Translations under genes and position numbers: made by a program
Part shown: in pieces, positions 54,546 to 58,114 of the stretch
Position numbering within the stretch: the stretch's first letter is position 1
How the letters are laid out: the number at the start of each line of letters is the position of its first letter
Assembly (NCBI GenBank): GCA_021793235.1
Contig: JAJYTD010000002.1
Span: 124,001 to 188,000, forward strand
Reading direction: 5' to 3'
DNA: 64,000 nt
Origin: Actinomycetes bacterium
GTDB taxonomy: Bacteria; Actinomycetota; Actinomycetes; Streptosporangiales; Streptosporangiaceae
The notes under the pieces: model-generated
What the model saw: the letters and a program-made list of their open reading frames with translations, nothing else
The model's database searches: none
Told to the model about the DNA's origin: nothing

Positions 54546-54579
54546 GCCGCCTTGGTCTATGCGACAAACTGGAACAATC

Positions 54580-56325
54580 ATGGACTTCATGCCTGACACC
54601 GATCCCGGTTCCGCCGAGGACGCCGGTGTTCCTCTGCGTCGGCTGCTGCTCGCGGTCGGGGATCCGATGGTCGACGTCCTGGCCGCACCCGCCGGACTGG
54701 ATGTGCGGGTGGACGGCATCGTGATCGTCGATCCCGAGGACGACATCGAGGTGAGCGCCAACGATCTTGTGCTGCTGATCGGGGCGCGCGGCGCGGCGGC
54801 CCGGCATCTGGTGCGGTCGGCCGCACGCCGCGGTGCGGCGGCGGTCGCGGTCAAGGCGAGCGCCGCGGCCCGCGCCGATGAACCCTCCTACCCGCCTCCG
54901 CAGGGCTGGAGCGCGGCACGGCCCGCGACACGGCTGGTGGACGACGAACTCGGACTGCTGCGCGCCGCCGCCGGCGAATCCGGGGTGGCGCTGCTCCTCG
55001 TCCGCCCCGATGTGCGCTGGGACCAGTTGCAGTCCCTGTGCCGCACCATTGTGGACGACGCCCGGCTGACCATCGGAACCGACCTCGGTGACACCTCAGG
55101 CGATCTGTTCTCCCTGGCGCAGACCATCGCGACGCTCACCGGCGGCCTGGTCACCATCGAGGACTCCGCCAGCCGAGTGCTCGCCCACTCCAGCGGTGCG
55201 GACGCCGATGAGCTGCGCCGACTGTCCGTACTGGGCCGCCAGGGCCCCGAGCAGTACCTGTCTCTGCTGCGCGAGTGGGGCGTATTCTCCCGCCTGCGCT
55301 CCGGAGAGGAGATCGTGCGCATCGACGAGCACCCGGAACTCGGCATCCGGCGCCGCATCGCGGTGGGCGTCCATGCGGGATCGCAGCCGCTCGGGGCGAT
55401 CTGGGTGCAGGAGGGGGCGCAGCCGTTGACCGCGAGCTCCGAGGAGGCCCTGCTGGGTGCGGCGCGGATGACCGCCCTGCACATGCTTCGGCGCCGCACG
55501 GAAATGAGCGTCGGCCTGCGGCTGCGTGAGGACCTGTTGGCGAGCCTGCTCGAAGGCAGGATCGAGGCCGCTGCGCTGGCCGACACCATCGAAGTGGACG
55601 CCGACCGGCCGGCCCTGGTCGTGGCGTTCGCGCTGAGCGAGGGGCGTGCGGCCACCGCCGAGGAGCACGATCGATCCGGCCGGGAGCTGAAACGGGGCCA
55701 GATGATCGACCTTGTCTCGGTACACACCGCCGCCTACCGGCGCACCGCTCTGGTGACGGCGCTGGGCGGCCGGGTGTATGCGCTGCTGCCGGAACTGGCG
55801 CACCGCTCCGGTGTGCCGGCCGCCGAAGCGTCGATCCTCGCCCTGACCCGAAAAACCGTCGAGGCCGCGCGGGGGATGCTCGGCATGGCCGTTCAGGGCG
55901 CGATCGGGTCGCTGGTGGAGACACTCGCCGACATTCCCCATTCCCGGGTCGAGGCCGACCGCGTCCTCGACGCGATGGGACGCGACCTGGCGTGGAATGT
56001 GGCGACCATATCCGAGGTGCGCACCCAAGTGCTGATCAGCGAGACGCTCGCACACCTGCGCGGCACTCCCGCGCTGCGCGACCCGCGCGTCACACTCCTG
56101 GCCCGGCACGACGCCACCGCCGGGTCCGAGCTGGTGCACTCCCTGCTGGTGTATCTGGAGGAGTTCGGCGATGTCCGCGCGGCCGCGGCGCGGCTGCATA
56201 TCCACCCCAACACGCTGCGCTACCGGGTGCGCCGCGCGGAGTCAGTGGCCGGGATCGACCTGTCAGACCCCAACCAGCGGCTGTTCACCCACCTGCAGCT
56301 GCTGATGGAAGACGGGGAGCGCTGA
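54580..56325 (+). CDS. PucR-family transcriptional regulator (proline catabolism)
   Basis: 581 aa from ATG 54580 with GGAA six nt before; ATG 54559 also in frame. A long N-terminal sensory part (about 20-330) includes a GAF-like segment. The PucR helix-turn-helix lies at the C-terminus (VRAAAARLHIHPNTLRYRVR, about residues 525-545), the single DNA-binding domain. Divergent from pruA-putB, the layout of the PutR-type proline-responsive activators of streptomycetes and other actinobacteria. Inferred to activate proline degradation when proline or P5C is present. Confidence 0.9.
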   Translation: MDFMPDTDPGSAEDAGVPLRRLLLAVGDPMVDVLAAPAGLDVRVDGIVIVDPEDDIEVSANDLVLLIGARGAAARHLVRSAARRGAAAVAVKASAAARADEPSYPPPQGWSAARPATRLVDDELGLLRAAAGESGVALLLVRPDVRWDQLQSLCRTIVDDARLTIGTDLGDTSGDLFSLAQTIATLTGGLVTIEDSASRVLAHSSGADADELRRLSVLGRQGPEQYLSLLREWGVFSRLRSGEEIVRIDEHPELGIRRRIAVGVHAGSQPLGAIWVQEGAQPLTASSEEALLGAARMTALHMLRRRTEMSVGLRLREDLLASLLEGRIEAAALADTIEVDADRPALVVAFALSEGRAATAEEHDRSGRELKRGQMIDLVSVHTAAYRRTALVTALGGRVYALLPELAHRSGVPAAEASILALTRKTVEAARGMLGMAVQGAIGSLVETLADIPHSRVEADRVLDAMGRDLAWNVATISEVRTQVLISETLAHLRGTPALRDPRVTLLARHDATAGSELVHSLLVYLEEFGDVRAAAARLHIHPNTLRYRVRRAESVAGIDLSDPNQRLFTHLQLLMEDGER

Positions 56326-56328
56326 TCC

Positions 56329-56368
56329 TGGCACCAGCGGGGAAGCGCGGTCGGGGCCGCTGGTGCCA
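56329..56368. terminator. Bidirectional hairpin terminator
   Basis: TGGCACCAGCGG / CCGCTGGTGCCA, perfect 12-bp stem with 16-nt loop, between the pucR stop (plus) and the tRNA-like gene (minus). It can end both. Confidence 0.8.
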
Positions 56369-56393
56369 CGGTCAACAGTGGTGTAGGCACGGG

Positions 56394-56467
56394 TACCCCC
56401 GGTCGGACTCGAACCGACACTTGTGACCCTTTTAGGGGGCCTGCCTCTTCCATTGGGCTACGAGGGC
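56394..56467 (-). tRNA. tRNA-like gene with aberrant anticodon loop (UAA triplet, C33)
   Basis: 74 nt. Folding by eye: acceptor GCCCTCG/CGGGGGT (7 bp, two G-U), T8 A9, D-stem GCC/GGC, D-loop with GG, anticodon stem GGCCC/GGGTC with loop CCTAAAA, six-base variable loop, T-stem GTCGG/CCGAC with loop TTCGAGT, discriminator A. No encoded CCA (CCC follows). Positions 34-36 read UAA, which would decode UUA (Leu). However, the variable loop is class I, whereas Leu tRNAs are class II, and the invariant U33 is C. Position 21 and the 13:22 pair are also abnormal. It has a TATGAT box six nt upstream and a terminator downstream, so it is probably expressed. Isoacceptor identity cannot be assigned. Confidence 0.72.
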
Positions 56468-56473
56468 CTGACC

Positions 56474-56479
56474 ATCATA
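56474..56479 (-). promoter_or_regulatory. -10 box of the tRNA-like gene
   Basis: TATGAT on the minus strand, six nt from the predicted mature 5' end, so transcription would start at or next to the tRNA's first base. No clear -35. Confidence 0.5.
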
Positions 56480-56531: not shown

Positions 56532-56568
56532 GAGGCGGCCGGTCCTGACCTGCAGGACCGGCCGCCTC
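56532..56568 (-). terminator. Terminator hairpin downstream of ndh
   Basis: GAGGCGGCCGGTCCTG / CAGGACCGGCCGCCTC, perfect 16-bp stem with 5-nt loop, 15 nt after the ndh stop. Confidence 0.8.
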
Positions 56569-56583
56569 CGCCGACGCGGTGGG

Positions 56584-57963
56584 TCAACTGACGCGCCGGA
56601 GCAGCTGCCCGTTCTCCACCTGCGGCCTGCTGGCATCCTCGAACGCCTGGCGCGGCTCGCCCATCTCCGGGAGCCCTGCGAAGTCGCGCCGGAGGAGGAA
56701 AGCAAGCGTCCAGTCGGCCAGTACCCGCAACTTGCGGTTGAGGGTCGGCACCGCGTACAGGTGGTAGGAGCGGTGTGCGTACCAGGCGGGCCGCCCGGTC
56801 AGCTTGACCTTGCCGAACAGCTGCGCCGCGCCCTTGTGCATTCCCAGGCCGGCGACCGCCCCCAGGTTCTCGTGCTTGTAGGCGGTCGGCTTCGTACCGC
56901 GCAGGGCCGCGATGACGTTGTCGGCCAGGACCGGGGCCTGACGCACGGCGTTCTGCGCGTTCGGCGGGTAGAAGCCGCCGTTGCCGTCAGGCACCTGAGC
57001 GTTGTCGCCGCCGGCGAACGCGCCGTCCACTCCGTTGACCGCGAGGAACTCGGTGGTGTCGATGTGGCCCTTCGGACCCAGCGGCAGATCACTGGCCTGC
57101 ACGACCGGGTTGGGCTTGACGCCGGCGGTCCATACGAGCGTACCCGCGTCGAACTCGGCACCGTCGCTGAGCTTGATGCGCTGGTCAACGGCCGATTCCA
57201 GGAAGGTGGACAGGCGCACATCAATACCGCGCAGCTTGAGCTGGTTCAGCGCCTTGCTCCCCACCTGCGGTCCGACCTCCGGAAGAATCCTGTCCGCGGC
57301 TTCGATGAGGTAGAAGTGCAGGTCGTCGACGCTGATCGACGGATAGATCCGGGTGGCGTCGCGCGCCAGGTCCTCCAATTCGGCGATCGCTTCGGCACCG
57401 GCGAACCCGCCGCCCACGAACACGAAGTTCAGCGCCTTGCGGCGGAGGTCCGGGTCGTCGGTGGAGTCGGCGATGTTGAGCTGTTCGAGGACGTGGTTGC
57501 GCAGATAGGCGGCCTCCTCGACGGTCTTGATGCCGATGCCCCACTCGGCCAGTCCGGGGATGGGCAGTGTGCGGGACACCGCACCGGCCGCCATGACGAT
57601 GTAGTCGTAGGAGATCGTGCGCGGCTCGCCGAGGTTGGGCTCGAAGTCGACCGTGCGGCCGGCGTGATCGATGCGGATGACGCGCCCGTTGAGGACGCGT
57701 GTGCGCTTGAGAACTTTGCGCAGCGGGACGACGACATTGCGCGGGGAGATGCTGCCCGCCGCGGTCTCAGGAAGAAACGGCTGGTAGGTCATGTAGGAGT
57801 TCGGGTCAACGACCGTGATCCGCGCCTCGCCCGGCCCGAGCTTCTTCTCCAGCCGCCTCGCGGTGTACATGCCCAGGTAGCCGCCGCCGACGATGAGTAC
57901 GTGCGGGATCTCCGATTCGTCACCACCGCCGTAGACCAGTCGGTAGTTCCTGCTCTCGGTCAT
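56584..57963 (-). CDS. ndh: Type II NADH dehydrogenase (NDH-2)
   Basis: 459 aa from ATG 57963; the open frame further upstream lacks conserved sequence. Membrane-surface FAD enzyme that passes electrons from NADH to quinone without proton pumping. FAD site HVLIVGGGYLGMYTARRLE near residue 20, second nucleotide site FVFVGGGFAGAEAIAELE near residue 170, and the FAD-pyrophosphate motif GVDGAFAGGDNAQVPD near residue 320. A C-terminal amphipathic region would bind the membrane. Two Rex-type operators in the upstream region point to control by the NADH/NAD ratio. Confidence 0.94.
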   Translation of the reverse strand: MTESRNYRLVYGGGDESEIPHVLIVGGGYLGMYTARRLEKKLGPGEARITVVDPNSYMTYQPFLPETAAGSISPRNVVVPLRKVLKRTRVLNGRVIRIDHAGRTVDFEPNLGEPRTISYDYIVMAAGAVSRTLPIPGLAEWGIGIKTVEEAAYLRNHVLEQLNIADSTDDPDLRRKALNFVFVGGGFAGAEAIAELEDLARDATRIYPSISVDDLHFYLIEAADRILPEVGPQVGSKALNQLKLRGIDVRLSTFLESAVDQRIKLSDGAEFDAGTLVWTAGVKPNPVVQASDLPLGPKGHIDTTEFLAVNGVDGAFAGGDNAQVPDGNGGFYPPNAQNAVRQAPVLADNVIAALRGTKPTAYKHENLGAVAGLGMHKGAAQLFGKVKLTGRPAWYAHRSYHLYAVPTLNRKLRVLADWTLAFLLRRDFAGLPEMGEPRQAFEDASRPQVENGQLLRRVS

Positions 57964-58114
57964 CGCATATCCGCCCTTGGTTCCTGTTCCGAGCCCTGAG
58001 TAAGAGCAGCAAAGGTCGGCAAGTATTTTTTGTTCAGCATGTTCAGCCTGGTTTTTCATCGAAAGAACACACTTTCTTGCCGGCGGGTCGGAGCTCGCCT
58101 TCTCCTCCCCCGCT

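Follow-up and report, generated by a model that had tools for sequence, protein, structure and literature searches.

A class I tRNA-Leu(UAA) with C33, very probably the working UUA reader of an actinomycete of the Streptosporangiaceae

Introduction

The U-turn of the anticodon loop is made by U33, a base that almost all elongator tRNAs share. Both the role and the near-universality are consistent with passages of two papers that deal with this position (PMC3664417; PMC9023262). What, then, is to be made of a tRNA gene that encodes another base there? Such a gene lies in a 64,000-nucleotide stretch of an assembly assigned to the Streptosporangiaceae (Actinomycetes bacterium, GCA_021793235.1, contig JAJYTD010000002.1, positions 124,001 to 188,000; referred to here as the window, in whose numbering coordinates are given). 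An original prediction, made from the letters alone, had described a solitary tRNA-like gene with a UAA triplet and C at position 33, and had offered three readings of it: a tRNA used outside translation, a UUA-responsive regulator of the kind known from bldA, or a degenerate pseudogene. Here we weigh these readings against that of a tRNA at work in translation.

Results

A tRNA gene with C33

On the minus strand ARAGORN called a tRNA-Leu(taa) at 56392-56467, and cmscan of a 301-base stretch matched the Rfam tRNA model at 56394-56467 with 43.7 bits (gathering score 29); run over the whole window with the gathering cut-off, cmscan listed nothing, presumably an effect of the speed filter. Of the 59 matches to the Rfam model genome-wide this one scores lowest, yet it lies above the cut-off. 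The two programs and the sequence agree on a real tRNA gene with a UAA triplet and a short variable loop, as predicted, and sequence and alignment alike place C at position 33 of the loop (Table 1). C74 and C75 are encoded by chance at 56393-56392, and the complete CCA is not encoded. When the 76 nt are folded in silico, acceptor, anticodon and T arms appear, and the folding weakly beats that of shuffled sequences (z -1.1; 22 of 200 shuffles were equally good). Another register of the anticodon stem, in which C31-C33 pair with G39-G41 around a 5-nt loop, was rejected because relatives with the stem GCUC/GAGC retain the canonical register and break the alternative one. The check that had been proposed with Infernal and a tRNA fold thus leaves the non-canonical loop with C33 standing; an ordinary anticodon loop was not obtained.

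Table 1. Features of the tRNA locus, in window coordinates.
Feature	Coordinates	Strand	Basis
tRNA-Leu(UAA), class I, positions 1-73	56394..56467	-	ARAGORN, Rfam, comparative alignment by position, sequence
Anticodon loop CCUAAAA (32-38), with C33 at 56435, anticodon UAA at 56434-56432 and A36-A37-A38	56430..56436	-	sequence, alignment
Leucine-type D-arm, positions 10-25	56443..56458	-	sequence, alignment, likeness to the genome's class II leucine tRNAs
Short variable loop, 6 nt, last base U48	56419..56424	-	alignment by position
-10 element TATGAT, seven bases 5' of the tRNA	56474..56479	-	conservation in 109 related loci
Inverted repeat, 18 nt, 89% complementary (56323-56340/56357-56374)	56323..56374	.	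between the convergent tRNA and pucR-like genes
Perfect 16-bp GC-rich hairpin with weak T-rich tail, between ndh and the tRNA promoter	56532..56568	-	terminator scan
Upstream neighbour ndh, type II NADH dehydrogenase	56584..58059	-	ORF; name from sequence features and the original prediction
Downstream convergent neighbour, PucR-like regulator	54559..56325	+	ORF; name from the original prediction

All 59 tRNA matches of the genome are covered by loci that were read with ARAGORN, which gave 54 distinct tRNA sequences. The U33 expected of a canonical elongator is present in 53 of these 54, and C33 occurs in tRNA-Leu(UAA) alone. ARAGORN divides the leucine tRNAs of the genome into class II molecules of 84-86 nt with a long variable arm (anticodons CAA, GAG and CAG) and class I molecules with a short variable arm (UAG, 75 nt; UAA, 76 nt). 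The tRNA-Leu(UAG) (L079:104-178; G000:C46:123253-123326) has the same D-arm as its UAA counterpart and a normal U33. No second UAA tRNA was found among the 59 matches, nor did a strict class II UAA pattern match anywhere in this genome. The assembly consists of 119 contigs and is 99.97% complete by the tool's figure, so that a second UAA tRNA could have been overlooked, though this is improbable; the gene at 56394-56467 is most likely the only tRNA-Leu(UAA) of the genome. One bacterial LeuRS scores above the curated cut-off in this genome, which also encodes miaA.

Leucine identity on a class I body

According to the passages of PMC9976931 that treat bacterial leucine tRNAs, the leucine determinants are A73, A15-U48, G18G19, A20a and U8:A14, the long variable arm is not among them, and C2-G71 acts as an element against SerRS. 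All of these bases, C2-G71 included, are present in the sequence and alignment of tRNA-Leu(UAA). Its D-arm has three pairs (GCC/GGC), C13 opposite A22, G21, A14 and A15, G18 and G19, and A20a. The original prediction had noted that positions 13:22 and 21 are off; the bases are as it described, but they belong to a leucine D-arm, the unpaired 13/22 and the three-pair stem being shared with the genome's own class II leucine tRNAs. Charging with leucine may be inferred from these identity elements together with the single LeuRS.

The body of the tRNA is that of a type spread well beyond this genome. It has the UAA anticodon, the D-arm motif GCCCAA..GG.AGAGGC and a variable loop within 5-7 nt that define the class I tRNA-Leu(UAA), and, with 6 nt in that loop and no long variable arm, it falls outside class II. 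Across 394 genomes of the class Actinomycetes the class I pattern matched in 208 and the class II, bldA-like pattern in 58; none matched both, and 128 matched neither because the patterns are strict. (A loose class II pattern allowing three mismatches gave noise, with 234 forward and reverse matches versus 133 in the control, and the strict one was used instead.) Within the family, all 41 genomes, this one included, matched class I and none class II. A similarity search found tRNA-Leu(UAA) in 72 of 100 relatives, and in 56 of 60 of the same family. The class I form also occurs in 25 phage records, the annotated ones that were opened naming it tRNA-Leu(taa), and in at least 120 stretches of viral contigs. 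The earlier view that variable loop and acceptor arm are not those of a leucine tRNA is therefore not upheld: the identity elements are present, and class I is the commoner UAA form in the class. In the open-licence literature (subscription papers lay outside the scope) we found no account of class I tRNA-Leu(UAA) being standard among Actinomycetes, nor of C33 within it; the type is known from databases, and a UAG relative is known from print, as passages of PMC6582537 describe.

Conservation of stems, promoter and surroundings

For comparison, 68 distinct C33 tRNAs were collected from 149 loci, 119 of them found by a pattern requiring C33 and the D-arm and 30 by similarity. Stem cells are 99.5% paired in these sequences, and the mismatches are due to pairs 27 and 28. 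Pair 30-40 is C-G in 35, U-A in 32 and A-U in one, and pair 6-67 is C-G in 43, U-A in 22 and U-G in three. A73, U48 and C2-G71, none of which the search pattern demanded, are each found in 68 of 68. The comparison with relatives for covariance and presence that had been proposed thus gave compensatory changes over 68 sequences and no random decay.

The original prediction had also given the gene its own -10 box and terminator. The promoter half of this claim is well founded: across 109 related loci (some genomes being present twice) the columns at the -10 element GGTATGAT, -14 to -7, show 68-94% agreement, compared with only 28-54% for columns -45 to -15. The terminator is half supported. The inverted repeat that separates the tRNA from the pucR-like gene has no T run and is a possible two-way terminator; a scan for a terminator consensus downstream of the tRNA found none, and TTTT occurs within 50 nt downstream in 4 of 109 related loci. 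On the other side, the hairpin at 56532-56568 probably ends the ndh transcript. Among the 30 closest loci, own included, tblastn placed an ndh homologue beside the tRNA in 18 and a pucR-like homologue in 9; in 6 of the 30 the retrieved stretch had a ppx homologue next to the tRNA but no ndh, and in another 6, some cut by contig ends, no neighbour-protein query matched. At one locus (L261, Actinomadura logoneensis) a tandem copy of the tRNA's 5' portion, up to and including the D-arm, lies immediately upstream of the gene.

Distribution of C33

The 30 closest loci, a set gathered by similarity search with no requirement for C33, all have the loop CCUAAAA, and a scan of named genomes yielded at least 119 C33 stretches. 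Elsewhere in the same family, for instance in Nonomuraea, the loop is CUUAAAA. A hand count among the matches listed gave at least about 35 genera with C33 and at least about 20 with U33, genus g37 appearing in both. The 80 titles among the C33 matches listed are all actinobacterial; the taxa listed include Nocardiopsis, Streptomonospora, Thermobifida, Actinomadura, Thermomonospora, Actinoallomurus and Trebonia. In other families every class I UAA sequence among the matches listed has U33 by eye, as do all 27 distinct parsed ones, and among the viral matches listed U33 is found in 107 of 108 distinct class I sequences. These counts suggest that the C33 tRNA is a clade-specific variant of class I tRNA-Leu(UAA) with a change from U33 to C33.

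Some sequences stand apart. An IMG/VR contig (L389) carries the only C33 in the at least 120 viral class I stretches listed, with the loop UCUAAAA and a different body, and at locus L340 the acceptor and anticodon stem of a C33 tRNA-Leu(UAA) are clearly different. In genus g37, genome G515 has two class I tRNA-Leu(UAA) genes, one with U33 and one with C33 (G515:C1:698439-698486 and G515:C8:478049-478099), possibly an intermediate or a regained copy; in another genome of that genus (G036) the U33 form was matched.

A LeuRS tree of 25 genomes requires two changes of the C33 label: a U33 clade separates two groups with C33, the second of which encloses a single U33 species. Two changes are likewise needed when G010 is added to give 26 rows; the 25-row tree omits G010 because its sole match is a divergent enzyme, and neither version includes G021, G026, G032 or G515. 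On a 17-row tree (of 30 rows, after a strict motif filter) C33 occupies one side of a branch, with one change. The history of C33 may accordingly comprise one gain with a reversion or two gains. Divergent LeuRS-like proteins of ~970-1000 aa were noted in three genomes (G010:C172 and C5, G031:C313, G051:C324); G031 and G051 have one besides the usual LeuRS of 830-900 aa, and G010 matched divergent forms only.

UUA codons in C33 genomes

UUA is the rarest leucine codon of the genome, with 9 of 36,662 codons in genes called by a simple rule rather than a gene finder. It lies inside ORFs that match Pfam as a tRNA pseudouridine synthase, an Mrp-type antiporter, an acyltransferase and a GAF-SpoIIE protein. 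In two further ORFs UUA is the third codon, near an uncertain start, and another two are without a Pfam match. Among 103 called ORFs UUA was thus not confined to developmental or auxiliary genes, since it is found in those for the tRNA pseudouridine synthase and the Mrp-type antiporter.

The C33 genomes supplied 67 UUA positions, of which 12 could be compared with three or more homologues; a single gene of one organism accounts for two of the 12. At these testable positions the mean share of leucine was 0.69, compared with 0.74 for CTG, 0.78 for CTA and 0.79 for TTG, and for the controls ATA, GTA and TTC the first residue was Ile, Val and Phe. It looks as if UUA is read as leucine in C33 genomes, within a small sample in which some ORFs may be spurious. 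The prediction that UAA would read UUA fits both this alignment with leucine and the lack of another UAA tRNA among those found in the genome.

A first sample of eight C33 and eight U33 genomes gave 2.09 versus 4.39 UUA per 10,000 codons at equal CUA, the latter figure being the pooled U33 line without G011 and G038, both then confirmed as U33 (Fisher p 0.0006 for UUA against CUA; Mann-Whitney p 0.005 and 0.028). Counted by group, the frequencies per 10,000 codons were 2.09 (43 of 205,560) in eight C33 genomes of the Nocardiopsis side, 3.10 (22 of 70,979) in three further C33 genomes, 4.35 (89 of 204,625) in eight U33 genomes of the same family, and 1.65 (12 of 72,753) in three from other families with U33. 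The genome that carries a U33 and a C33 copy gave 2.0, and one with a class II tRNA gave 2.3. Over all groups no consistent link between C33 and rarer UUA emerged: the first contrast was significant but nearly one of clade against clade, and it was lost with the second C33 group, the two-tRNA genome and four genomes of other families.

Discussion

Taken together, our results indicate that the gene very probably encodes a functional elongator tRNA, the sole tRNA-Leu(UAA) found in the genome, which inserts leucine at the rare UUA codons. It would be transcribed alone from its own -10 element and, after maturation and CCA addition, would be charged by LeuRS through A73 and the elbow, the long variable arm being unneeded in bacteria; MiaA, whose gene is present, may modify A37 within A36-A37-A38, and the tRNA would then decode UUA as leucine. 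C33 would remove the U-turn contact of U33, a change that is most likely tolerated, perhaps at a cost in speed that is bearable for a very rare codon, and the G+C-rich anticodon stem and A36-A37-A38 may help to tolerate it. Reduced but sufficient function is the plainest reading of C33, because a U33C change in yeast tRNA-Gln has a phenotype that passages of PMC3664417 attribute to poor decoding or charging and because eukaryotic initiator tRNA-Met naturally has C33, as noted in parts of PMC9023262; slow decoding under selection and C-to-U editing remain the alternatives to it. What counts against a functional tRNA is the lowest tRNA score of the genome, the modest fold z score and the poorer decoding or charging seen in other tRNAs when U33 is mutated.

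That same lowest score, together with C33 itself, is what a pseudogene or dying copy would lead one to expect, but we regard the chance of this as next to nil: it is disfavoured by the compensatory stem changes and the conserved promoter, and A73 is invariant and no other UAA tRNA was found. The original prediction had raised decay while remarking that the promoter argues against it, and the conservation of the -10 box in related loci and of the stems bears out the remark rather than the suggestion. Scarcely more probable is a tRNA diverted from translation to the aminoacylation of lipid, wall or peptide. The missing U33 and the solitary gene would suit such a role; a redundant isoacceptor, however, which would free a tRNA for it, was found neither among the 59 matches nor with the strict class II pattern. 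As recognisable genes contain UUA and these searches gave a single tRNA able to read it, the proposal is disfavoured. Nor was any aminoacyl-transferase-like neighbour present among the ORFs and homology matches examined.

It is unlikely, taken as a whole, that C33 is other than neutral, whether erased by C-to-U editing or selected because it brakes decoding from within the loop and so turns UUA into a slow, regulatory codon. To our knowledge C-to-U editing of tRNA has been described only from archaea and eukaryotes. Deamination of the encoded C33 to U33 after transcription, which would give a canonical mature tRNA, would be in keeping with a loop and stem otherwise conserved as in a normally working tRNA, and editing at positions 8, 32 and 34-35 is described for archaea and eukaryotes in passages of PMC6382703; those passages name no bacterial case, and we consider such editing very unlikely here. 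If it did occur at position 33 of an elongator tRNA, this would be a bacterial case of the archaeal and eukaryotic kind. Somewhat less improbable, though still unlikely, is that C33 is kept to slow or limit the decoding of UUA, in a bldA-like system with its control in the tRNA loop and not in tRNA supply. UUA is indeed the rarest leucine codon of the genome, C33 is kept across many genera, and in the first sample C33 genomes had half the UUA of U33 genomes at equal CUA. Against this, the second C33 group reached 3.10 and the other-family U33 genomes only 1.65 per 10,000, and UUA is also found in housekeeping-like genes; in addition, the developmental significance of bldA may not reach beyond Streptomycineae, according to passages of PMC4255298. 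UUA frequency does not track C33 consistently, and a bldA-like brake is therefore unproven. Of the predicted regulator what stands is the sole UUA reader found; the comparison of codon use does not show a regulatory role. If the brake were real, it would be a bldA-like switch of different make in Nocardiopsis, Thermobifida, Actinomadura and relatives.

Tolerance of C33 in a working elongator tRNA, the preferred reading, can be set beside known systems. In other Actinomycetes and in phages, class I tRNA-Leu(UAA) is alike in short variable loop, D-arm motif, A73 and UAA anticodon; it differs from the C33 tRNA described here in having U33, in every distinct sequence compared from other families and in all but one of the viral ones. 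The bldA tRNA of Streptomyces is likewise the sole UUA reader of a genome in which UUA is very rare (passages of PMC4932002), but it has a long variable arm and U33 where the tRNA described here has a 6-nt variable loop and C33, and here UUA was not seen to be restricted to auxiliary genes; the analogy with bldA holds only for the role of UUA reader. In a mycobacterial tRNA cluster a tRNA-Leu(TAG) with a short variable loop is described in parts of PMC6582537, which like the present tRNA puts a leucine anticodon on a class I body, as does the UAG tRNA of this genome; the anticodon is different, and the genome's own UAG copy has U33. Eukaryotic initiator tRNA-Met shares C33 in a natural working tRNA, but it is an initiator and not an elongator, and its body is unrelated.

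The exception to U33 described here concerns the only tRNA that the genome appears to have for a codon, with no spare copy, and the same change recurs across many genera, so that the C33 and U33 lineages offer a natural comparison for what U33 is needed for. Beyond position 33, the UUA reader of most of the sampled Actinomycetes is a class I tRNA, and the bldA tRNA of Streptomyces therefore represents the less common architecture, which bears on how UUA-based control outside Streptomyces is to be viewed.
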